The notes beneath the pieces are model-generated. The model made no database searches, was not told the origin of the DNA, and saw only the letters and a program-made list of their open reading frames with translations. Positions 1 to 33,577 of a DNA stretch of 52,432 nucleotides are shown one piece after another (the first letter of the stretch is position 1; the number at the start of each line of letters is the position of its first letter). The translations under genes and the position numbers were made by a program. The stretch lies in the IMG/VR virus record IMGVR_UViG_3300021599_000261, positions 1 through 52,432 of that record. The stretch is one strand, 5' to 3'. The stretch comes from a virus.

Positions 1-237
1 GGGGTTACCCTTTACTTTTACGTATTCTACCCTTTGCTTCCATGTGTTATAATGAAGTTTTTGTGGTATCTATGTCTTCGTTATAGCTGTTATTTTTAGA
101 ATTGTATATTTTTAATTACTTAGATGCTTTGTTGGCAGCTGGATATTTGCAGGCTTTGTTAGGAGCTTTATGCAAATCCTGCTAACATATATTTTATACA
201 GAAATGTTTTTAATTAAAAATTACAGCTTAATGTGTT
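1..237. other. AT-rich left edge without a convincing gene
   Basis: No frame here gives a convincing protein. Short open stretches run off the left edge on both strands, so a gene end or start just outside the window cannot be excluded. The segment holds a direct repeat GCTTTGTT (126-133 and 153-160), a weak hairpin GTTAG/CTAAC (158-162 with 182-186) and an AT palindrome TTTTTAATTAAAAA near 207-220. Together with the structured segment to the right, about 760 bases lack a recognisable protein gene. Confidence 0.4.
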
Positions 238-591
238 TGCGATGCTGTTGTGTAGGCGCATAGTATCCCCTTTAGATACGGGCTGAATTTCGTTTACATT
301 AGTTGAGTCTTTATGCCTTAGACCGTACGTTGCAGGGGTTCGCCCTGTACACCTTCGTAACAGCCCAAATATCCTGTAAGGGTTATCCTTATCCTTACAG
401 CTGTTACCTCTAAGGGTCTTTATATGACTCAACCAGTTTCGGTTCTATCGGGGACACATCTCTGTTTATGTAGTGACAGATACTACCCGACGTCTGGGCT
501 TTGGATTGACTAGGTAAACCTTAGTCTCTTGAAAGCCGTACTAATGACGGAACATTAGGAACCTATAAAGAACTTGTAGAATTAACTACTT
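238..591 (-). ncRNA. Candidate large structured RNA
   Basis: This stretch is packed with exact complementary arms. Examples are GTTGAGTC 302-309 with 426-433, CCTTAGA 316-322 with 409-415, GTAACAGC 357-364 with 400-407, TGTAAGG 375-381 with 393-399, GCAGGG 332-337 with 343-348, GGCTTT 497-502 with 532-537, CTAATG 541-546 with 553-558 and GTAG 576-579 with 586-589. The first arms enclose the next four, giving a multibranched fold. A leftward TATATTTG box at 596-603 points transcription through it on the minus strand, which decides the strand given here. It does not match tRNA, tmRNA, RNase P or group I intron signatures that I know. The 3' end is unclear because no U-rich terminator is visible. 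A 72-codon open frame inside it is better explained as chance. Confidence 0.5.
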
Positions 592-595
592 TACA

Positions 596-603
596 CAAAT
601 ATA
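596..603 (-). promoter_or_regulatory. Leftward Bacteroidota -7 box before the structured RNA
   Basis: On the minus strand this reads TATATTTG, a perfect match to TAnnTTTG. A run of nine T lies 16 nt upstream on that strand, the same spacing as in other promoters of this window. Transcription would start near 591 and run left through the structured segment. Confidence 0.55.
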
Positions 604-653
604 CCATTTTAGTTTACAGAAAAAAAAATATTTTTTATTTAAAACATCTGTCG

Positions 654-661
654 TATATTTG
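654..661 (+). promoter_or_regulatory. Bacteroidota-type promoter, short transcript
   Basis: TATATTTG matches TAnnTTTG, with a T-rich element (631-638) 15 nt upstream. The transcript would start near 666 and meet a terminator at 690-719, so it would be only about 50 nt long unless read-through occurs. A six-codon frame starts at 664. The box lies back to back with the leftward promoter at 596-603. Confidence 0.55.
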
Positions 662-689
662 CAATGTCTCAAAAAAGCCGATAATTACT

Positions 690-719
690 CCCCCTTGGTT
701 TCTACTAAGGGGTTTTTTA
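690..719 (+). terminator. Intrinsic terminator between two promoters
   Basis: Stem CCCCTT (691-696) pairs with AAGGGG (707-712), followed by six T. It lies between promoter boxes at 654 and 738, so it would stop the short upstream transcript before the exported-protein gene. Confidence 0.75.
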
Positions 720-737
720 TGTTTAATAGAAATTAAC

Positions 738-745
738 TATATTTG
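738..745 (+). promoter_or_regulatory. Promoter of the exported-protein/appendage unit
   Basis: TATATTTG lies 15 nt before the ATG at 761. The same 15-nt gap occurs at 13734 and 33660. It follows the terminator at 690-719. Confidence 0.7.
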
Positions 746-760
746 TTCAAAATATTTAAA

Positions 761-1227: not shown

Positions 1228-2259
1228 ATGGCAATAGCATTAAAACCTAGAAGTAACAAGCAAGGTGTTGTAGATACCTCTGATGACCTAGTTAATATTG
1301 AAGGTAGAGAAAATTACACCGTACTAGTAAAAGACTTAGGAATATTTGAGTGGGTTGCAACAGGTGTTGTTGACAGCTTAAATATTTTTGAAGGGAAAAA
1401 AGGATTCTGGAGTAGAGTAATTCAATCTAGTGAAGGTAATACACTTGATTTTACTCCTGAGAATGTAGCTAATAAGTCTATTTCTGTTACAGAAGATTCA
1501 TCAAGTGATACCAAGTATCCTTCAGTAAAAGCTGCTAAAACTTATGCAGATTCATTGGTTGTAGGACTTTTAAACGATAGAGGTAATTTTACACCAAGTG
1601 TAAGCTCTCCTGGTTCTTGGCCTACAACTGGTGGCAGTGGTACTGCTGGAGCTATTAAAAAAGGAGACTTGTGGTTTTGTGCCGCTAATGGATTTTTAGA
1701 TACAACAGCTGTAGTTACAGGTACTAGCTTCCGTGCACTTTCTGATGCCCCTGGTCAAACAGCAGGTAACTGGAATATCTTAGATGCAGGACTTGGATAC
1801 ACTCCTGAAAATGTAGCTAATAAATCTACAAGTACTTCTCTAGGTACTAGTAATACTTTATATCCTACTCAGAACGCTGTTAAAACTTACGTAGATAATA
1901 AATCAGGTATTCCATATAAAGTGTATACAGCATCTCTTATATTTGGCTCAGGAGCAGTTACTGCAACAGTATATCAAAATACAATAGGTGATGGCTCTGC
2001 TGATGGCGTAAATGATATTGCTTGGGTTGACCCTGGAACAGGTTCATACAATGCTAATATGACAGGAAGTACAGCATTCCCTTCTGGAAAAACATGGATT
2101 AAATCAGCTAATTATATGGGTGGTAATCAATGTTTTAATTTATGGGGAGTAAGAGTTTCTAATACTCAAGTTAGATATACTAGTAGAAAAACATCAGACA
2201 ATTCACTTAGTAGTGCTAATAGCATTCCTGTATTTATCGAAATTAGAGTTTACCCATAA
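1228..2259 (+). CDS. Tail appendage/fibre protein, paralogue A
   Basis: 343 residues. The N-terminal 190 residues are clearly related to the next gene, starting with MAI-KPRSN-QGVVDT and sharing the blocks VLVKD, IFEWV and TGVVD. A linker of the type TPENVANKS followed by KYPSVKAAKTYADS occurs around residues 70-105 and a second copy near 190-220. This linker type is common in phage fibre and appendage proteins and also occurs in the collagen-like protein at 37563. The last 110 residues differ from the paralogue and look like a beta-rich tip ending IEIRVYP. The gene starts after an A-rich leader without Shine-Dalgarno. Role in receptor contact is inferred. Confidence 0.7.
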   Translation: MAIALKPRSNKQGVVDTSDDLVNIEGRENYTVLVKDLGIFEWVATGVVDSLNIFEGKKGFWSRVIQSSEGNTLDFTPENVANKSISVTEDSSSDTKYPSVKAAKTYADSLVVGLLNDRGNFTPSVSSPGSWPTTGGSGTAGAIKKGDLWFCAANGFLDTTAVVTGTSFRALSDAPGQTAGNWNILDAGLGYTPENVANKSTSTSLGTSNTLYPTQNAVKTYVDNKSGIPYKVYTASLIFGSGAVTATVYQNTIGDGSADGVNDIAWVDPGTGSYNANMTGSTAFPSGKTWIKSANYMGGNQCFNLWGVRVSNTQVRYTSRKTSDNSLSSANSIPVFIEIRVYP

Positions 2260-2284
2260 CATTAAAATTAAAAAACAATAAACA

Positions 2285-3454
2285 ATGGCAATAATTCAAA
2301 AACCTAGAAGCAATAGTCAGGGTGTTGTAGATACAACAGCTGACTTAGCTCAATTAAATGGAAGACCAGGGTATCAAGTTCTGGTAAAAGACGTAGCTAT
2401 ATTCGAATGGGTATCTACAGGAGTAGTAGATAATAATAATATCTATCCAGGATTAAGTGGATTATGGAGTAAAATTATTATGTCTGCTGATGATGCTCTA
2501 TCATTTACACCAGAAGATTCTGCTAATAAGTCTTTAAATGTTATTACAGATGGAGACAGCGATGTTAAATATCCTTCTGTTAAAGCTACTAAGATTTATG
2601 CAGATTCTTTAGTTACTGGTCTACTTGATGACAGAGGTAACTTTACTCCTGGACTTACATCTCCTGGCGCATGGCCTACTACAGGTGGTAGCGGTACAGC
2701 AGGAGCTATTATGAAGGGAGATATTTGGTTTTGCTCTGCTAGTGGGTTTATGGGTACTACTGCTGTAGTTGCTGGAGCAAGTTTTAGAGCTACAGTAGAC
2801 ACTCCTGGTCAAACAAACGCTAACTGGAACGTTCTTAGCGCAGGTGCTATCTCTGTTGCTACTCCAAGCCTAAGCGAAGTAACAGCAGTAGGTGCATCTA
2901 CTACAAGTAATATGTCTATAAGCAATGGTAACGCTGCGGTAGATTTTCAGGTATTCTCATCATCAAACGGTGGTGTTCAGCTGGCTGTAGACTCAATTAA
3001 TAAAGGATATGCTTATATAGCATCAGGAAATGGAACTGGAGCAAAAATAAAAGCAAACAATATAACTGAAGATAGAAATATTCAGCTTCCAAACGCTTCA
3101 GGTACTCTTGCCCTCACTAGTGATATAACTTCTGCACCTTATTTAGTTTATTCAGCACTAATAACATATAATGGCTCATTCACGATAGATGTATTACAAA
3201 ATACATTAGGGCAAACTATTACCTGGTCTATTCCAGCTAATGGAACTTACAGAGCAACTTCAACAGGAACGCCTTTTATAGTTGGGAAAACATTTTTAAT
3301 ATGTCCAGGATTTTCTAATGCAGGAGTTCCATATATTATAGCTCCTGGTGCTGGAGGAAATATAGCTGATTTTAATTTCTTTAAATTTGATGGAACGAAA
3401 ACTTCAACACCATTAATAACTAGATACCCAGTAGAAATTAGAGTTTATCCATAA
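2285..3454 (+). CDS. Tail appendage/fibre protein, paralogue B
   Basis: 389 residues, 25 bases after paralogue A. Its first 190 residues match A block by block, including DDRGNFTP and a following PGAWPTTGGSGTAGAI segment. The middle (about 190-290) is unique, with a segment resembling the phage-fibre motif NI-LPNASGTLALTSDI. The C-terminal part again ends in IEIRVYP, as in A. Recent tandem duplication followed by divergence of the distal half is the simplest reading. A strong terminator follows at 3482, closing the unit that begins at 761. Function as a receptor-binding or decoration protein is inferred. Confidence 0.7.
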   Translation: MAIIQKPRSNSQGVVDTTADLAQLNGRPGYQVLVKDVAIFEWVSTGVVDNNNIYPGLSGLWSKIIMSADDALSFTPEDSANKSLNVITDGDSDVKYPSVKATKIYADSLVTGLLDDRGNFTPGLTSPGAWPTTGGSGTAGAIMKGDIWFCSASGFMGTTAVVAGASFRATVDTPGQTNANWNVLSAGAISVATPSLSEVTAVGASTTSNMSISNGNAAVDFQVFSSSNGGVQLAVDSINKGYAYIASGNGTGAKIKANNITEDRNIQLPNASGTLALTSDITSAPYLVYSALITYNGSFTIDVLQNTLGQTITWSIPANGTYRATSTGTPFIVGKTFLICPGFSNAGVPYIIAPGAGGNIADFNFFKFDGTKTSTPLITRYPVEIRVYP

Positions 3455-3481
3455 TATTCTGTTCATGGTTTGGTTTGTAAG

Positions 3482-23044: not shown

Positions 23045-26000
23045 ATGGCAGAACAGCAATTCCCCTTAAGTCAAGAAGAGTTAAACCAAGAAGAATTTAA
23101 GCCTGACGTGGCGAATATATTAGGCTACGATAAGGATATGTTCAACACCAAAGACTCTTTTGGAGAACTACCAAAAATAAACCCACAAGAACAGATACAG
23201 CTATTTGACGATGTGCCTGTTGGGAAAGAGCAGAAAAATGCTTTATTAAATCTAAATACAATATCGGAAGAGTCACTAGAAAACGTATCTATTGACGCAG
23301 ACGGCAACTACGATTTTGCCACTAAAGTAGATGACGGTACTGGCATTATGATGAATCAGGAGTTTGAAGACCCTATTCTTGAAAAGAAAAAGAAAGAACT
23401 GATTGATGATGTCAATAAAAGGAAAGACCAGGAAATAGAGACTCTTAAAGTAGATGCAGACCAGAAGGTAGCATCAGGGGAACTTAAAAAAAGCCGCAGA
23501 GACAGATACATAGAGAAGAATCAGAAGGAGATAGAGAAGAGGTATAAGAAAGAAGCGGAAGATGGGTATAAAAATATATATAAAGAAGCTAATGAAAATA
23601 AGGATAAACCCTTAGTTAAATTTAAAAATAGATTAAATAAATATAGCGAAGGTATAAATAACTTATGGGGTGTTGTTCAGAAATTACAAGCTGGAGATGT
23701 TATATCTCAAGAGGACTATATATCAAGCTACTCAGACCCTGAATTTCAGAGTAAATATTTAGAGGTTAAAGGCAGAGGTATTTCAAGTATTAATCAGTTC
23801 AAAAGCGAATACGAAAAAGGTGGGAATGTAAAGGCAGGAGATATTTACTTAGGCTACATTACAGGAAATACATATTTAACAACCGATGCTTTTAAGAAAA
23901 GTTCAAGACCTGTATATTTCGAGGCTACGGTAGACAAAAAAGGCAATAAGACTATAAAGTCTGTTAAGCCTGCATTTGTGCATCCTGTTACCAAGCAAGT
24001 TATAGGTGCTTATGTGCCCCCACAAAGGGGCTCCAGTGATGTTTTAATTAACCCTGCTTATACTGCTATAGCTGGTTATTCTGACCAGATAGCAGGAATT
24101 GATAAAGATGTAGAGAATGGCGTTATAGATGTATCGGAGGGGCAAAGAAGAAAAGATAATGCTAAATCTAGAAGAGCAGAATATCTAAAAAATAATATCG
24201 AAGCATTTGATGAGATTATGGCCAGCGACAAGTACAGCAAAGATGTAAAGATGGCTGTAATTGCTTCAATGTATCCTAATGAATTTAAGAAGAAATATAC
24301 AGAGCTTTTAGAAAGTGGAGATAATAATATAGCAGGTTCTATTATAGGATGGAGCATAGGTCTTCCTGCAAAGGTAATATCTACTGTAACAGGTGCAGCG
24401 GCTTCCGGTATAGACAATCTTGTTCAGGCATATCTTGGCTTGGATGATATTGAGTTCCCTATGGGAACGCTTCCATTGGAGCTTAAGAGAAATCCTGAGA
24501 TAGCTTTGGAGATGGACAATGTAGTAAAATCATCCTATAACAGAAGTTCTAAATATTTAACTAGTATAGAAGGGTTGGCTGAGCTTACTCACGCCGCAAA
24601 GGTTAATGTAAATAATAAAAAAATAGGAGCTGCGATTGCTTCAGCGCAACCATTTGTTGAAGAGTTGGACTCTGTTGTTAGAGAAATAAATAACGATAAG
24701 CAGGCTCTTGATATTAATATAAAGAATTATTCAAATGACTTACTGGGTATATTTAACAAGAAAGGATATACGACAGCATTGAATAATGCGTATAAGTTGA
24801 ACAGCGAGCTTATTAATAGCAAAGATGAAGATATAAGAAACGCTTACAGGTTTATAAGATTAAAGCAGCAGGTATTGAATCATGATGGTTCGGCAGACCA
24901 AGCATTATCTAAGTTGTCTAAGGAGGACATTGAGTTTATCAATACAGTAGGTAAGGATTTGACGCAAAATAGGATTCCATTACTAAATACGGTTGTCGGT
25001 AAAATAAATGAAGTAGCGGATGCGTTTAATTCGGCGAAAAGTCTATATCCTACAAAAGAAGTACAAGAATATGAAAGAAAGAATAAAGTAAAGTTAGAAT
25101 CAGATATTAAATCCTTTAACGACAAGGTGACTCTTTTTACGGAAAGCGATGTAATGTCATCTGAATCATCTTCTGCGTTAGATATAATTCAAAATCTTGG
25201 TATGAAATATGACCAAGAAGCCGCTGGAAATGAATCATATACCTTTCCTTCGTTAGCAAGAATTGGGCATCAGATGCCGAAGAATTTGCTTGCTATGACG
25301 AATCCGGCTACTGGATTAGTAGTAGGGATGCTTGAAGGAGTTTCGGATATACTTAGAAGCGTTGAGTCTACGGCTAACCTTGTAGGGAATATCCAGTCTT
25401 TAGACTTTGATTTGCAAAAAACATATATTTCTGCATCGCTGAATGAGTGGAAGCGCAATTTAGAGATTAAAACACCTGATACTGGTAACTACATCTATAA
25501 CCTATCTAAGCAAATAGGTGGAGCTCTTCCTCAAATGGCAGCATTTGTAGCTTCGTTTGTGGCTGGCGGTCCTATTGGTGGTGCTTCTTATTTAACAGCT
25601 ACGATGACTGGGGACAAGATGAAAGAAGCTGCTAATGCAGGACTTGACCCTATAGAGCAAATGCTTTATACAGGATTGAGTATAGGTATCGAGTATGGTT
25701 CTGAACTAGTAACATCGGAAACTGGATTAGCAGGAGTTAGAGGAGGTAAGTCGTTGCTTACTAAAGAGTTGCTTAAAAAGATTATGAATGTACAAACAAG
25801 GAAGGAGGCTCTTAAGGAGTACGCTAGACTTGTTTGGAATACATCTAAGAACGTGGTTAAAAGCGGAGCGCTTGAATCTTTTGAAGAGCAGGTGTCCGAT
25901 AAGTCAAACTACATATTACAGAATCTGTTTAATAACGTATTTGCCACTACATTCCAACCGTCAATGATGGGGCTTAAGGAGTCTCTTGACAACCTGCTTA

Positions 26001-29000
26001 CAATGACGGCTACGGGAGGTATATTTAAGCTTACTACTGCTATGTTTAACAGGCAAGTGCCAGTAGAAGCTAAAATGAAGACGAGACTGCAAGAGCAAGG
26101 AATGTCTGATAATAGAGCTACTCTTGTAGCAGGTGTATCTTCTCCTAGTGGACTTAAGTCGTCGATAGACTTTGTAAATGCTGTAGAATCCGGTCAAATA
26201 TCATCTCAGGATATAAACACAGAGGAGTATGAGTATTTAAAGAATAAGCTCATTCCGCAAGCAATGCGTTTGCAGACAGAGATGTTTAATATGTCTGCTA
26301 ATACAAACCTAAGTATACAGCAACGTTCTGTCGCCTTGTTCAACATGATGCAGATGAATGAGGTGAATGACAGGGTTGAAAGAGGGGAGATTTCTGCTCA
26401 AATGGGGCAGGCTGAAATAGTGCAACTTCAGGATAATATAAATAAAGCATTAAAAGATAAAGCGTTTGCAAATGAGCAGTTTGGTTTAGATGATACAGGT
26501 CTTGCTCAAAAGATTAAAGAATACATGGGTGTAGCTGACATTGCTATCAATGAAGAAGGCGCAATGGATGCAAGAACTACCACACCTGCTGCCACACAAG
26601 AGGTAGCGCCTGCTACAGATGTAGCAAGTAGTAAGCCTGCTATGGAGGCGAGAATGGTAGAAGCTGAAAATGATGCAAGAGCAGCTGCTTCAAGTGCTAC
26701 TACTGCTGCTAATCCTATAGCAAATGAGCAACAAGCAGACGCTTCGGTGCAAGCCGAAATGGGGATGCCTGCTCAGGCTCCTTCGCAAGTTGCTGGTTTT
26801 GAAGTAGTTAACAAAGCGACCCTTGCAGAAAGGCTCATTAACATAGTAGCATCTCCTATTAGAAAGAACAAGGCAAGAGGTAGCATGGAAAGAGAGATTA
26901 ATAAAAATCCTGAGAAGGCTCTTTCTATGGAGATTTACAATACGAGAGCGCAGCTTGATATGGCTCAGGACAGGTATGATAATGCTATATCAATGAAACC
27001 TGCTGCTCCTGTTGAATTAGCCGAGATTAAATTGATTACAGATAGATTAAACAAGCTTGTAGCATTAAAAGATAATTACGCTAAAACAATACAATATGCC
27101 ACTGAAATCAGCCAAGGGCTCCAGCAAGAAATCGCTCAACGACGCAATCTCTTACAACCTACGGGAACTGAGCAAGGACAACCTCAAGTCGGGCAAAGAG
27201 AAGGGGGCGTCGGGCAAACCGCGCAGCAAGCAGCAGATGCTCGCAATCGCGATTTCGTCAGCCAAGCGCAAGCCGCAGTCCAAGAAATAACAGCTGTAAC
27301 AGAAAAGCCACCTATCCTAAATAGGTATCTATCAGGTATGCAGCCTGGGCAGGAGGTTCAGTTAATGGATGAAATAGCAGCACAAGTAGTTACTAATGAA
27401 GCTGCTGCGGTACGTCAATTTGGACAACCCGTCGTTGACAGGGTAAAACAATACGTTGCTGATACAAACTTTACTACAGACCTTCCTATTGTAAGAGATG
27501 CTATGGTTCGCCAAGCGGAGCAGAGCGTTGGTCAGGCAGAGCAGGAAGCTAATACAGTAATAGCAAGACAGAATCAGAATACATCTAAGCAGCATAAGAA
27601 AGCGGTAGTTAAACTCGTAGAAAGACTTAAGCAAGCCTTCCCGAATGTAAAGGTATTTATGGATAAGAAAGGGTTTGAGGCTGCTATACAAGACCCTGCT
27701 GCAAGAGAGTTGATGACAAAGGGTGGTGTGGTGTATGGTAGAGTATTAAATGGAAATGTATATCTGAATCCTGACTTTTCAAACTACAACACACCGCTGC
27801 ATGAGTTTGGGCATCTATGGTTGAATGTGGCTAAGGAGGCATCTCCGAACATATACAACCGAGGGTTGGAGCTGATTCGTGATAGTGAATACGTTACACG
27901 TCTTGAAGGAGACCCTTTGTATAATGGGTTAACCAAAGAGGAGCTTGAGGAGGAGGCGTTGGCTACTGCTATTGGAGATAGAGGTGAGCAGCTTGTATTA
28001 GAATCGCAGAAGAAAGGGTTTAGAGGATGGATGACAAGATTGCTACGCAAGATGGCTCAGTATGTAGGCATTATGAATATGTCTAGCAGCGAGCTTCGTA
28101 GTTTAGACCTTGACGCTTATTTGAATATGGTGAATGCCAGCTTGCTTGCTGGTCAGCCATTGACCAGAGAGTCTATCAGAGCAAGTGGTTTTCAGATAAT
28201 AGGAGAAAACGCACAGTTATCTAAAAATATTATAAATAATCTTGGTGTTGCAAAAGATATGGAGGCATTAGGAAAAGATGCCTTAAATATAAGAATAGCT
28301 ACGGGATGGGAAAAAGGAGCAGACAATAAATGGAGATACGAGATAATAGATGGCACATACAAAAGAAACTTATTTACTATTATTAAAGAGGCAACCGTAG
28401 GTCTTACAATAGGAGACGTATATGATAATAAAGAATTATTCAGAGCATATCCTAAATTAAAATCTCTTCCATTTAAAGTAGAAGCGCTAAAGATTGGAGA
28501 TAATGGGTACTATGATGGTTCTGGAATAGTGATGAATAAAACACTTGTTACTGATGACGAATTTTCATCAAGAGATAATATTATAAAGTCTACATTGCTT
28601 CACGAATTACAGCACGCTATACAAGACATAGAAGGATTCTCTATTGGTGGAAATGAATATTTTAAAGAATATACAAAATTAGCTGGAGAAGTTGAAGCCA
28701 GGAATGTTTCAAAGAGGATGAATATGACTCTTGGCGAAAGAAGAATGAATTTGCTGCAAGAAACAGAAGACGTAGCAAGAGAAGACCAAGTACTTTTCTT
28801 TAATAATTTTGCTTCACAATTCATGGCTAAGATGGACAATAGTGTTAAAAACGCATTGACCAGAGTAGCACAGGAGCGTTTCAACTTAGCTATTGCAAAA
28901 GGAATGGATTTAGAAGCAGCTAGGGCAGAAGCGTTCACTAAACTTACAGAGTTCGTTATAGGTAATTACCTTAACAAATCAAACTATGCTGAAATATTAG

Positions 29001-32000
29001 ATGGGCTTTCCGGCATAGTATTGAACGTATCTGAGTCTGAAAGACAAAGAGTTATAGAGCAGAAGAAGACTGAAAAGTTAAATCAGCTATTTAGATTCTC
29101 TGAGATTCAGGCAATCGCAACGATGGCAAACGAGGAGGCTTTAAGACTTGCACAAGGCAAGATTAAAGCTTCCGATGCCATCACGCAGGTTACTGAAAAA
29201 GTGAAGGCTGAAATAGAAGCTCTGTTTGCTGGCAATAAAGCTCCGGCAGGAGTATCTTGGATTAATGCAATGGCTCTTGCTCCCTCTATTGCTGCTGATG
29301 CAGTAATGGCTGCCTTCCCTGCTACAAACAGAAAGTCTTTGGTGAATGAGGATATTGTTATTATGACTACTTCTCAATTTGTTCGTAAGATTATATCTGA
29401 TAAGATACGTGCTATAAAAGATGTAGAGAAGCGTGCAGAAAAAGATATAAAAGCTACAGAGAAGCGTACAGAAAAAGCTATAAAAGATGCAGAAAAAGCT
29501 ACGGAAAAAGCTATAAAAGCTACTGAAAAATCTACAAAAAAAGATATAAAAAGTAGAACAGAGTCTATAATAGAAGCTGTAAAAGAGATATTCAAGCAGA
29601 TGTCAGATACTTACGGTAAGGGATTAAAACTATCTCCTTCTAAAGTAAATGCCATCATTGCCGAGATAGATGCAAATGTTTTCAGTCGGGAAGATATAAT
29701 GTCAGCAACTGAGGAAGCGGCTAACGCTATATCTAACATCATTGAGAAGGAGTATAGAAAGAAACTTATTGATGAGTCTGTTGCTCTCTTGGATAAGCTA
29801 AAAGCTAAAACAGCTAAAGCTAAGTATACCGGGGATATGCTCAATAAGGCGATGACTCTTTTGGGTATAAATACTACCGATTGGAAAAATAGTGATGCTA
29901 CTCTTGAAGATATATCTCTGTTCAATACAGCAATAAATAAGATTTTAGCAGGAGATGTTTCTCAGTTTGACTTTGCTATGTCTAAGGCAGGAGATATTCA
30001 GGTTGAAAATAATACTAAGATTAGCAGTGAGTTTGACAGCCTCATGGGTAAGATGAATAGGATGATTGCTAAGGCAGGAAATCTTGATACTTCTGATTAC
30101 GCATCTATAGCAGCTCTTTATAATGCAATGATAGATGTTAAGGAGCGTAAGGGTGATTTGTCGGCTTTTACTGCTGAGCAGTTAGCTAAGCTAGAGCAGA
30201 AGTACTCTGATGTTATAGCTTCTATACCTGGCTCATTAACAATAGCTAAAATTGTAGAACAGAAAGAACGTGAAATAACTAATGACCTTAAGACGAAGGC
30301 TGATTTGCTAGCGTCTGAATTAATATCAGAATCATCTGATATTCGGATGAAGATTAAAAATCCGCTTAGCTTACATAAGGCAATGCTGTTTTCATCATTT
30401 ATACTTCAAGGTGATTATCTTGACAGCTTAGATACTAATGGTAAGCTTGCTCTTATTAACGCATTAGACAATATAATAATATACGGGAACTACAACTACG
30501 ATGCTTATGTTCAGGATATAAAAGCAAGGAAGTATTACTTAAAAACTAATACTATTGATGCCGTAATGAATATGGCAAGAAGAAGAAGGACAACCTTAGC
30601 GTCTCCAGGTCATACAGGTCTTATTTTTAACAAGCTAAAAAACTTCTTAAGAATATTTACAGACGTAGAAGGTACTACTCCTTCTGCTCAGCTCATAGCA
30701 GACAACTTTGACCTATTAAGGCTTCAATCAATGGACGTAGAGCTGTTTAGCGGTTATGATGATTTCAATATGGGATTTTTGGAGAGAGATATATTCGCTC
30801 CAATGGCTTCAGGGGTAGACGGTGCTGTAAACAGAACGCAGGCTAAGTTGCAGAACTTGCAAGATGCGATGCTGCTATTAGGCGACCAGTCTAATAGAAA
30901 CGTTGTTAAAAAAGCAATTAAAGGAGTTAGAGAGCAGTATGGATTAGGCTCAGACCTTAATATGAGAAGGCTGTTTGCTATGTTTAAGAGAGGCTCAAAC
31001 GAAAATATGTACGTTGAGATTTCTACTCGCATGGCAACTATTATTGCCCATCAAATAGACCATATCTCAAACCTTAAAGAAGGTCAACAGGCTGACGATA
31101 TGATTCTGAAAAGAAACATATTAGATGGTATGGCTGAAAAGGAAAAAGAGGGTAAAACGATGGCAGATAGGTACGGTAAACTTGGTGGACTTAGCACGCT
31201 TACTGGCAAGTACGATGACCTTCTTGACGCAATAGCTTATGCCGCATTAACAAATAACGGAACAGAAACCCTTGCAGGAATAAGTCAAGAGGATTTACTA
31301 AATAAGTTAACTCCTTCTCAGAAAAAAGCGATTGTATCTTGGAGAGAGTTTATAAACGGTAACAAAGATTTGGTAGAGTCAGCGATGATTGTTAGGGGTA
31401 ATATGAAGGCTCTGATTAAGAACTACTTCCCTAGAATGTTATCTTCATCTCAAGATGTAAGCAGCATAACCGATTATGATTCATACATGAATAGCCAGTC
31501 GGAAAACGTAGGGCTTAATGATGGACAGATAAGTAGTCGTATTGGAGATAAAGGCAAGATAAGCCTTAATGGAAACAAGGTTCTTTTAAATAACCTTAAA
31601 GCACTTCATCTTCTAAACGAAATGCAGCCTTATGTCGACCAGATTAAAGCTGTTGGAGAAGCGGTTGAAGAGCTTAAGACATTAGCGTCTAAGGAAACAA
31701 ATGAAGAGAAGAAAAGAGAATATAACTTCGCAGCCGCATACGCAGAAGGTATTTCTATTACAATTAAAAACAGGCTAGATAATTCATTGCTTAATGGAGA
31801 CAAGTCTTTGAATAACAGTTACAACTTTGCTGCTAAAGCAATAGGTGTTACTCAAAAGTTTGCTGCTAAGCTTTGGTTAGTCGGTACTATCAGGCAGGTA
31901 CTATCCGATTATCCTGCTAACATAATAAAGACTTCTGCCGCTTTAGCTTCTGCTAATAAGTCTGCTAAGAGAGCGCCTAGTCTGCAAGCTTGGAGATTAC

Positions 32001-33577
32001 TATTCCCAAGTAAGTCTGCTGTAAGAACAGAGCAGGGTAAGTTTGCATGGGAGGATTACGTTAAGATAGCAGAGATTACAGGTTCTCCTGTATATCGCAC
32101 GGTTTCAATGTATTCCGACAATTTCCTATACGATTACACTAAAACTCCTGCTGAGCTTCAAAGAGAGCAGAAGATTATGTCTTGGCAGGATATGGCTGTA
32201 AAGAAGCAGGCATGGATGGAAAGGTTTGAGAATGCTTTTGTAAAACTTACTGGTGAAGTATTCGACCATAAGGCTTTTGAAGATGAAAGAGGGACTTACA
32301 GAGCCATGTTCTATGAGGCTGTTCAGAAAGCGTCAAGTGCTGCCGATTCTACTGTTGATAGACAGTTTGGTCTACCTTCATTTGCTAGGCAGCCGCTAAG
32401 GACTAATATATTCTTTCCATTCATAGGAAGACCTTTAAGGTATCTTATCAATACGTACTGGCCTTCGAAAACGGCTAATAACATCCTTACAATAAGTAAG
32501 ACAAGTTGGATAGGCACTATAACAGGATTCATGCAAGGCTATCCTGCCGTACAGTTCTCTTTATTCAGGAACTACATGAAGCTCGCATTTTCCGGCACAA
32601 GTGGCCTATCTACGAAAGAGAGGGCAGGATATATGACACAAGCGTTAACGGAGTCGTTTATCCCAACATTTGCTTATGCTATGTCTAGGAAGTTCTTTGG
32701 TGCATTGTTCGTAGGTGCTGCAATGGCTGCTAGAAATGCTGCTGGGGATGAAGATGAAGAAAAGAAGATAAGGGAGGATATGGACAATCAAGACTGGTGG
32801 AATAGGATGCTTACTTCATTTAAGTTGCAGTTCAGAGAGACAGAAGATGCGGTTATGGATAATCTAATAAACTCATTAACTGCTAACGTAGTAGACCCTA
32901 ATACAACCTACTTATTAAGGATGGCAGCAGGTCTGGTTATTTTCCAGTACTGGAAGAAAGAGGCGATTATAGCAATGGATAAAAGAGAGATTGAAACGCC
33001 TACAGGGAAGAGGATGATGACTAAGGAAGAGAGAAAGAAAATGGGTAAGGCTATTAAAGAAAAGGAGAATAGAATATGGGATATGTTTAACGTAAGGCCT
33101 TTGGAAATATATGGAGGTAAAGACTACGAATATGCGTTAACTAAGCGTGACGTATCTTGGGCTGCCGGAAGACAAACACAAGGGTGGGAGGAGCTGTTTG
33201 AGTCTATTGGAGGATTTGGAGAGGTAGCTAAAACAGCTAGGTCTTTTGTAACAATCAAAGAGCTAACGGAGTCTGATAACAAAAATCTAGACAAGAAAGA
33301 GCTTTTAGTAGCGTCACTAATGAAGGCTTACGCTTTAATATTTTCAAATGTTATGATTGGCGGCAAATACGGATGGGCTGCAAGTATGTTTACAGGTGAC
33401 GCCAACAAGATAGCTAACACGATACTTAAAGACTTAGAAAACGAAAACAGAGAGTTTTTAAAATCTCAAAAGAAAAGAAGTAGCGGAGGAAGCTCAGGTT
33501 CTAGAGGCGGTAGAAGGAGAGGTGGAAGCGGACGCGGTGGTGGCGGCAGAGGTGGTGGAGGAGGAAGAGGTGGATGA
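23045..33577 (+). CDS. Giant polyvalent virion protein with two metallopeptidase-like motifs
   Basis: 3510 residues, one-fifth of the window. Likely packaged and ejected with the genome. HEFGH at 1586-1590 with a later ELEEEALATAIGDRG block is a zinc-metallopeptidase pattern. A second motif HELQHA begins at residue 1853, with an IEGFSIGGNEYF sequence after it, as in the metallopeptidase-like domains of phage polyvalent proteins. Hydrophobic Gly/Ala-rich segments lie near 430-450 and 820-850. A Lys/Glu repeat of the type TEKAIKDAEK spans about 2125-2170, and Ala/Gln-rich linkers about 1170-1250 and 1350-1415. The last 33 residues are a Gly/Arg/Ser tail of RGG type. A DUF6496-like small frame is nested at 27096. 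Probable roles are membrane passage and modification of host targets after ejection. Confidence 0.75.
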   Translation: MAEQQFPLSQEELNQEEFKPDVANILGYDKDMFNTKDSFGELPKINPQEQIQLFDDVPVGKEQKNALLNLNTISEESLENVSIDADGNYDFATKVDDGTGIMMNQEFEDPILEKKKKELIDDVNKRKDQEIETLKVDADQKVASGELKKSRRDRYIEKNQKEIEKRYKKEAEDGYKNIYKEANENKDKPLVKFKNRLNKYSEGINNLWGVVQKLQAGDVISQEDYISSYSDPEFQSKYLEVKGRGISSINQFKSEYEKGGNVKAGDIYLGYITGNTYLTTDAFKKSSRPVYFEATVDKKGNKTIKSVKPAFVHPVTKQVIGAYVPPQRGSSDVLINPAYTAIAGYSDQIAGIDKDVENGVIDVSEGQRRKDNAKSRRAEYLKNNIEAFDEIMASDKYSKDVKMAVIASMYPNEFKKKYTELLESGDNNIAGSIIGWSIGLPAKVISTVTGAAASGIDNLVQAYLGLDDIEFPMGTLPLELKRNPEIALEMDNVVKSSYNRSSKYLTSIEGLAELTHAAKVNVNNKKIGAAIASAQPFVEELDSVVREINNDKQALDINIKNYSNDLLGIFNKKGYTTALNNAYKLNSELINSKDEDIRNAYRFIRLKQQVLNHDGSADQALSKLSKEDIEFINTVGKDLTQNRIPLLNTVVGKINEVADAFNSAKSLYPTKEVQEYERKNKVKLESDIKSFNDKVTLFTESDVMSSESSSALDIIQNLGMKYDQEAAGNESYTFPSLARIGHQMPKNLLAMTNPATGLVVGMLEGVSDILRSVESTANLVGNIQSLDFDLQKTYISASLNEWKRNLEIKTPDTGNYIYNLSKQIGGALPQMAAFVASFVAGGPIGGASYLTATMTGDKMKEAANAGLDPIEQMLYTGLSIGIEYGSELVTSETGLAGVRGGKSLLTKELLKKIMNVQTRKEALKEYARLVWNTSKNVVKSGALESFEEQVSDKSNYILQNLFNNVFATTFQPSMMGLKESLDNLLTMTATGGIFKLTTAMFNRQVPVEAKMKTRLQEQGMSDNRATLVAGVSSPSGLKSSIDFVNAVESGQISSQDINTEEYEYLKNKLIPQAMRLQTEMFNMSANTNLSIQQRSVALFNMMQMNEVNDRVERGEISAQMGQAEIVQLQDNINKALKDKAFANEQFGLDDTGLAQKIKEYMGVADIAINEEGAMDARTTTPAATQEVAPATDVASSKPAMEARMVEAENDARAAASSATTAANPIANEQQADASVQAEMGMPAQAPSQVAGFEVVNKATLAERLINIVASPIRKNKARGSMEREINKNPEKALSMEIYNTRAQLDMAQDRYDNAISMKPAAPVELAEIKLITDRLNKLVALKDNYAKTIQYATEISQGLQQEIAQRRNLLQPTGTEQGQPQVGQREGGVGQTAQQAADARNRDFVSQAQAAVQEITAVTEKPPILNRYLSGMQPGQEVQLMDEIAAQVVTNEAAAVRQFGQPVVDRVKQYVADTNFTTDLPIVRDAMVRQAEQSVGQAEQEANTVIARQNQNTSKQHKKAVVKLVERLKQAFPNVKVFMDKKGFEAAIQDPAARELMTKGGVVYGRVLNGNVYLNPDFSNYNTPLHEFGHLWLNVAKEASPNIYNRGLELIRDSEYVTRLEGDPLYNGLTKEELEEEALATAIGDRGEQLVLESQKKGFRGWMTRLLRKMAQYVGIMNMSSSELRSLDLDAYLNMVNASLLAGQPLTRESIRASGFQIIGENAQLSKNIINNLGVAKDMEALGKDALNIRIATGWEKGADNKWRYEIIDGTYKRNLFTIIKEATVGLTIGDVYDNKELFRAYPKLKSLPFKVEALKIGDNGYYDGSGIVMNKTLVTDDEFSSRDNIIKSTLLHELQHAIQDIEGFSIGGNEYFKEYTKLAGEVEARNVSKRMNMTLGERRMNLLQETEDVAREDQVLFFNNFASQFMAKMDNSVKNALTRVAQERFNLAIAKGMDLEAARAEAFTKLTEFVIGNYLNKSNYAEILDGLSGIVLNVSESERQRVIEQKKTEKLNQLFRFSEIQAIATMANEEALRLAQGKIKASDAITQVTEKVKAEIEALFAGNKAPAGVSWINAMALAPSIAADAVMAAFPATNRKSLVNEDIVIMTTSQFVRKIISDKIRAIKDVEKRAEKDIKATEKRTEKAIKDAEKATEKAIKATEKSTKKDIKSRTESIIEAVKEIFKQMSDTYGKGLKLSPSKVNAIIAEIDANVFSREDIMSATEEAANAISNIIEKEYRKKLIDESVALLDKLKAKTAKAKYTGDMLNKAMTLLGINTTDWKNSDATLEDISLFNTAINKILAGDVSQFDFAMSKAGDIQVENNTKISSEFDSLMGKMNRMIAKAGNLDTSDYASIAALYNAMIDVKERKGDLSAFTAEQLAKLEQKYSDVIASIPGSLTIAKIVEQKEREITNDLKTKADLLASELISESSDIRMKIKNPLSLHKAMLFSSFILQGDYLDSLDTNGKLALINALDNIIIYGNYNYDAYVQDIKARKYYLKTNTIDAVMNMARRRRTTLASPGHTGLIFNKLKNFLRIFTDVEGTTPSAQLIADNFDLLRLQSMDVELFSGYDDFNMGFLERDIFAPMASGVDGAVNRTQAKLQNLQDAMLLLGDQSNRNVVKKAIKGVREQYGLGSDLNMRRLFAMFKRGSNENMYVEISTRMATIIAHQIDHISNLKEGQQADDMILKRNILDGMAEKEKEGKTMADRYGKLGGLSTLTGKYDDLLDAIAYAALTNNGTETLAGISQEDLLNKLTPSQKKAIVSWREFINGNKDLVESAMIVRGNMKALIKNYFPRMLSSSQDVSSITDYDSYMNSQSENVGLNDGQISSRIGDKGKISLNGNKVLLNNLKALHLLNEMQPYVDQIKAVGEAVEELKTLASKETNEEKKREYNFAAAYAEGISITIKNRLDNSLLNGDKSLNNSYNFAAKAIGVTQKFAAKLWLVGTIRQVLSDYPANIIKTSAALASANKSAKRAPSLQAWRLLFPSKSAVRTEQGKFAWEDYVKIAEITGSPVYRTVSMYSDNFLYDYTKTPAELQREQKIMSWQDMAVKKQAWMERFENAFVKLTGEVFDHKAFEDERGTYRAMFYEAVQKASSAADSTVDRQFGLPSFARQPLRTNIFFPFIGRPLRYLINTYWPSKTANNILTISKTSWIGTITGFMQGYPAVQFSLFRNYMKLAFSGTSGLSTKERAGYMTQALTESFIPTFAYAMSRKFFGALFVGAAMAARNAAGDEDEEKKIREDMDNQDWWNRMLTSFKLQFRETEDAVMDNLINSLTANVVDPNTTYLLRMAAGLVIFQYWKKEAIIAMDKREIETPTGKRMMTKEERKKMGKAIKEKENRIWDMFNVRPLEIYGGKDYEYALTKRDVSWAAGRQTQGWEELFESIGGFGEVAKTARSFVTIKELTESDNKNLDKKELLVASLMKAYALIFSNVMIGGKYGWAASMFTGDANKIANTILKDLENENREFLKSQKKRSSGGSSGSRGGRRRGGSGRGGGGRGGGGGRGG
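27096..27290 (+). CDS. Nested small basic gene, DUF6496-like
   Basis: 64 residues in a different frame inside the giant gene. Start MPLKSAKGSSKK and the block GKPRSKQQMLAIAISSAKRK match the widespread small phage protein type whose core reads S-KQAIAIALSEARK after an N-terminal MPLKKGSS. I count 107 G/C in 195 bases (55%), clearly above the AT-rich flanks. In the large frame the same bases encode a Gln/Gly/Ala-rich linker (IAQRRNLLQPTGTEQGQP and similar), which looks like tolerated overprinting. This suggests insertion of a small gene whose other frame stayed open. Expression is unproven: no promoter is visible and translation would need an internal start. Confidence 0.55.
   Translation: MPLKSAKGSSKKSLNDAISYNLRELSKDNLKSGKEKGASGKPRSKQQMLAIAISSAKRKPQSKK

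Follow-up and report, generated by a model that had tools for sequence, protein, structure and literature searches.

A structured RNA near the left end of the window

The window, i.e., the whole stretch of 52,432 nucleotides analysed here from the IMG/VR virus record IMGVR_UViG_3300021599_000261, encodes a structured RNA on the minus strand at 255-596, as judged from homology, covariation, and promoter position. The RNA is predicted to start at ~590, its final conserved element ends at ~255, and a promoter box of the Bacteroidota type, TATATTTG, is located at 596-603 on the same strand. A second contig of the same phage (L002; 65,303 bases) starts 17 nt inside the left edge of the window, so that two assemblies break at almost one point (window 1-20), possibly the site of a genome end or a repeat. 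The structural block of the window includes a 3510-amino acid ORF on the plus strand (23045-33577).

The core is a four-helix junction, P0[P1,P2,P3], to which an arm composed of P4, P5, P6, and P7 is added. Our covariance model R2 matches the junction at 436-563 on the minus strand (84.2 bits, E = 4.6e-20). P0 (GGUUC at 559-563 with GAACC at 441-445; 94-99.7% paired, with double changes in all five pairs) encloses P1, P2, and P3, and the linkers are short and conserved (AUC or UAC, AGAA or AGAC, and A). P1 is a hairpin (CUAAUG/CAUUAG; 541-558) and P2 a stem (497-537) with an inner hairpin, P2b (508-526), both indicated by covariation; GAAA loops are seen in P2b of several members. P3 (GUCGGG/CCCGAU, with the hairpin P3b; 447-491) is the most conserved part, AGAMGUCGGG...UGUCCCCGAU, in which P3 is closed by a nearly invariant G-U pair and the GUCCCC shows hardly any variation. 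Window 436-563 (minus strand) has the features by which we define the family, i.e., the P0[P1,P2,P3] junction with AGAMG, P3, and UGUCCCC. Among 158 cores, P3 occurs as GUCGGG/CCCGAU (58 cores), GUUGGG/CCCGAU (34), and GUUGGG/CCCAAU (66); the last is a compensatory variant, and the counts depend on the search patterns used.

An A-rich linker follows the core and leads to the P4-P5 arm, which ends in P6 and P7. P4 is formed by 426-434 (5' strand) and 301-309 (3' strand), with double changes in six of its nine pairs, and P5 by 409-415 (5' strand) and 316-322 (3' strand), as deduced from the comparison of six window-like sequences. P6 (400-407/357-364) bears a distal stem, P6b (393-399/375-381), the two together occupying 357-407; P6b is the weakest helix (82.5% paired). 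The P7 hairpin (332-337/343-348) is flanked by conserved GGUGUA...ACGUACGG (323-353). A preliminary description of this DNA had reported nested complementary arms, including 302-309/426-433; all of them were found where it had placed them, and they correspond to the conserved helices P4, P5, P6, and P7. The support for the window's own P4-P7 arm comes from six close relatives, in which 97.6% of the cells are paired and both sides have changed in 22 of 57 pairs, compared with 8.6 pairs in shuffles and at most 3 with slid partners. P4, for example, takes the compensatory forms GUUGAGUC/GACUCAAC, AAUAAGU/ACUUAUU, and GUUAAAGA/UCUUUAAC in the window and the related loci L003 and L004. Near the 3' end, the motif AAGGGGAUAC (263-272) is complementary to GUGUCCCC in P3 (450-457), and this alternative pairing appears in the MFE fold. 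[AT]GGGGA, the core of this motif (AGGGGAU), was counted in 69 of 136 viral loci (9.2 expected).

Homologues and covariation

Two related phage contigs, L003 and L004, were reached through the gene to the right of the RNA (761-1159); the regions upstream in them are ~73% identical to the segment and contain compensatory changes. A pattern made from the two most conserved strands matched 54 stretches of viral contigs, mostly true members, while a pattern leaving most of P3 free matched 17, two of which were chance matches that the model did not match. Patterns with altered P3 letters matched 47 and 85 stretches, and all of the newly fetched loci (79 of 79 and 44 of 44) were significant to the covariance model. 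R2 thus recovered all true loci of the later sets, one of which gave 65 matches in 64 sources. In total, 158 mutually distinct cores were obtained, 140 of which are viral; some of them are closely related, so the total does not stand for independent lineages. The RNA is also present in the complete crAss-like genome cr118_1 and in a few bacterial MAGs, and each of the 12 phage records carrying it has one copy. Judging from these matches, the RNA is a widespread family in phages of Bacteroidota-type bacteria, extending beyond the window phage.

By terminase, the window phage is distantly related to Cellulophaga phi19:3 and the Flavobacterium elemo phages. A BLAST search of cultured phages with the window RNA gave no match, and R2 matched neither four phages related to the window phage by terminase (Cellulophaga phi19:3, Flavobacterium elemoE, Maribacter Panino, and Manatee Spring ctfjg026) nor crAss001, phi14:2, phi38:1, and phi4:1. 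Among bacterial genomes, the RNA is rare: 2 of the 149 genomes searched in one order and 1 of the 395 searched in the phylum have it, with the query genome counted in both. The exceptions are the rumen Bacteroidales MAGs RUI415 and RUG14866 (L059-L078 and L079-L098), with 12 and 16 core copies per genome; their 3' domain is shortened, and the copies examined seem to lack the P4/P5 arm and are not at operon heads. Several of the MAG copies are convergent with genes ending in a T9SS-like (secretion-type C-terminal) sorting tail, and the similarity among these copies often begins near the first base of P0.

Because a MAFFT alignment of the whole set missed P0 and P1, an alignment (A7) was assembled helix by helix. 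In the helix alignment, 94.1% of the cells are paired, with 416 double changes against 127 in shuffled sequences and a covariation score of 0.703 against ≤0.10 when the partners were slid. In the set collected by the P3 variant pattern only, the score was 0.670, P0, P1, and P2 were 99.7, 96.5, and 99.0% paired, respectively, and double changes were seen at every pair. The 23 sequences behind R2 were aligned one helix at a time, their loops being padded and some of them cut, which biases the R2 statistics towards the structure. The window, found by R2 at E = 4.6e-20, is among the R2 seeds; R1, built without the window, finds it at E = 1.3e-8. Judging from the covariation, we have hardly any doubt that the family and its fold exist.

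Covariation across homologues, which the preliminary description had named as a check of the RNA, is strong, and neither outcome that it had held to speak against an RNA (no compensatory changes in homologues, or a conserved protein-coding frame) was observed. Compensatory changes are abundant, and a conserved reading frame is hard to reconcile with the loop-length changes and the covarying base pairs. Neither L003 nor L004 has an equivalent of a mechanically called 72-amino acid minus-strand ORF (214-432), and a protein-coding reading was rejected.

Promoter, transcribed strand, and genomic setting

The preliminary description had proposed a leftward promoter, and its box, TATATTTG, is indeed present at 596-603 on the minus strand, with its placement repeated in the homologues. 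It conforms to TAnnTTTG, the -7 element of Bacteroidota. In 34 of 54 loci, the RNA strand carries TAnnTTTG no more than 110 nt ahead of P0, compared with 6 loci for the mirror position of the opposite strand and 3.9 predicted from shuffling; in a larger viral set it was found in 63 of 134 loci (13 in the control, 11.4 expected). The -7 box ends 3-6 nt ahead of P0 in ~12 loci, where transcription would begin at P0, and 32 nt from P0 in the window. L056 carries a sigma-70-like TTGACA-17-TATATT (by eye) at the promoter position instead. The -33/-7 spacing that this promoter was said to share with others of the phage is not supported: the window has just two cases of a consensus -33 TTTG with a -7 box 18-22 nt behind it, neither of them here, where only a T-rich stretch lies upstream of the box.

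Judging from the -7 boxes and from the large excess of G-U over A-C (54 versus 18 cells outside P3), the RNA strand is the minus strand. Folding energy points to the other strand: z is -1.95 (238-603) and -1.78 (255-596) for the minus strand, modest against shuffles, and -4.17 for the plus strand. The proof of the RNA is comparative.

The plus strand has its own -7 box, TATATTTG, at 654-661, and ~30 nt further on an intrinsic terminator (691-712) with a T run; a very short transcript of ~50 nt is predicted from this pair (654-718). Such a box-then-terminator pair on the plus strand is also found in L003, L004, L015, L036, and L049. A second plus-strand box for the rightward gene lies at 738-745.

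With ORFs called mechanically, 123 of 128 viral loci have the next ORF in the orientation of the RNA, and it usually opens a long gene block; in 76 of 90 loci, the first five downstream ORFs all share this orientation, and in 83 of 118 the nearest upstream ORF runs divergently. In L024 and L055, the genes after the RNA are on the opposite strand. A terminator separates the RNA from the next gene in 7 of 126 loci and is absent from the other 119, and neither a terminator nor a promoter box lies between them in 91 of 126. In 30 of 126 loci, a separate -7 box serves the next gene (5.9 expected). In the window's clade (L003, L004, and L049), the next leftward gene starts 865-914 nt past the core behind its own -7 box, which favours a separate transcript there.

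The downstream genes are unrelated among the loci (e.g., terminase, ribonucleotide reductase, portal, and GroEL), and a Pfam search of the first downstream proteins gave nothing credible. In cr118_1 (Crassvirales, Suoliviridae; human gut), the RNA lies in the divergent gap before a gene block encoding a putative chaperonin, RNase HI, a transcriptional regulator, dUTPase, and terminase. A packaging RNA linked to terminase was considered and rejected: terminase is near some copies, and unrelated genes follow other copies.

Comparison with known RNAs and possible function

The earlier statement that the segment matches no known RNA class holds for the window, 36 other loci, and cr118_1 with Rfam 15. 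None of the 4227 families (including GOLLD, ROOL, OLE, introns, 6S, and tmRNA) gave an RNA match in the window at the gathering score; in two sets of 16 and 20 further loci, the only matches were tRNAs elsewhere in the loci. In E-value mode, no credible match overlapped window 1-760 or the cr118_1 RNA, and ARAGORN found 0 tmRNA or tRNA genes in the window. We found no description of the family in the open-access literature searched, although one screen of microbiome RNAs (PMC8040213) could include it. The RNA appears new at the level of the RNA family, and its function could prove to be of a known kind.

GOLLD and ROOL are large structured RNAs of phages and prophages whose function is undescribed and which are often near tRNA arrays (PMC12286853). 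The new RNA resembles them as a large structured phage RNA, some members of which are also near tRNA arrays. GOLLD and ROOL are, however, larger and in Rfam, whereas the new RNA is ~250-340 nt long with a four-helix junction and has no match there. The loci with tRNA genes are L023 (52-1472), L055 (226-1764), L215 (1410-1561), and L217 (1614-5597); in L178, a tRNA match extends over 158 nt (3317-3474, minus strand), as if there were an insertion in a tRNA gene. 6S RNA and tmRNA are bacterial structured RNAs of comparable size, and neither Rfam nor ARAGORN matched them here.

The put RNA of HK022, a lambdoid phage, is a ~70-nt RNA of two hairpins that acts while nascent, directly behind the phage promoter of the operon it heads; an antiterminator RNA of this kind works in cis on RNA polymerase, which then passes terminators. 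The new RNA is similar in its operon-head position after a promoter and in its proposed way of working, but no relation to put is seen in sequence or fold, and it occurs once per genome.

Three features suggest a generic effect on the operon in cis: the operon-head position, the start at P0, and downstream genes that are unrelated. Our tentative preference, to which we give slightly less than an even chance, is a cis-acting 5' leader of a long phage operon. Leftward transcription from the promoter at 596-603 would start with the RNA, which would fold once out of the polymerase and alter the expression of all the downstream genes; the unrelated nature of these genes suits such an effect. The most likely route would be a put-like action on RNA polymerase during elongation, which is a guess by analogy; alternatively, the RNA may protect the 5' end of the transcript. 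The conserved 3' GGGGAU may act as a switch by opening P3, because it is able to pair with the invariant UGUCCCC of P3 in competition with P3 itself.

A stand-alone noncoding RNA acting in trans is nearly as likely, although we favour the leader. Such an RNA would serve host takeover or phage development, either bound to protein or as a particle of RNA only, like those formed by GOLLD and ROOL. This reading would be in keeping with the RNA's own promoter and start at P0, the separate promoters of the next gene, the free-standing copies in the Bacteroidales MAGs, the long conserved unpaired stretches, and the proximity of some members to tRNA arrays, a setting also reported for GOLLD and ROOL (PMC12286853). 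The scarcity of terminators after the RNA speaks against it, and the same-strand bias of the next gene exceeds what such an RNA needs. In the window's own clade, it is perhaps likelier than the leader.

A DNA-level element, i.e., a replication origin or packaging site whose palindromes form DNA hairpins, would suit the divergent intergenic position in many phages, but is highly improbable given the G-U excess, the nearly invariant G-U pair closing P3, and the promoter placed at the RNA start. We consider a self-splicing intron or self-cleaving ribozyme equally improbable. The AGAAGUC string and the four-helix junction recall the hairpin ribozyme, and an ORF resembling a homing endonuclease (by eye) lies right after the RNA in L075 (Chitinophagales; 2120-2720, plus strand); the Rfam intron and ribozyme families, however, gave no match, and the element is intergenic, promoter-proximal, and interrupts no recognised gene. 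Membership in the hairpin ribozyme class was rejected in particular, as AGAA lies in the P2-P3 junction and does not face a GUC strand and the loop A arrangement is absent. A functional RNA on the plus strand, for which the folding energy and the terminator at 691-712 could be cited, is the least probable of all, since the promoter boxes, the G-U asymmetry, the GAAA loops of P2b, and the gene orientation all favour the minus strand and a plus-strand promoter box sits between the RNA and that terminator.

Extended to the family, the leader reading would hold that Bacteroidota phages, including crAss-like phages, control a whole operon through a self-folding four-way-junction leader, with the transcription complex as its target and its own 3' GGGGAU as the switch; in this full form we regard it as rather unlikely. 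Few phage RNAs are this complex, and most of those have no described function. Phage biology gains a large and strongly covarying RNA family with at least 140 distinct viral members, one of them in a complete crAss-like phage of the human gut. The covariance model allows its annotation by others, and since the RNA usually heads a phage operon, its function can be tested directly.
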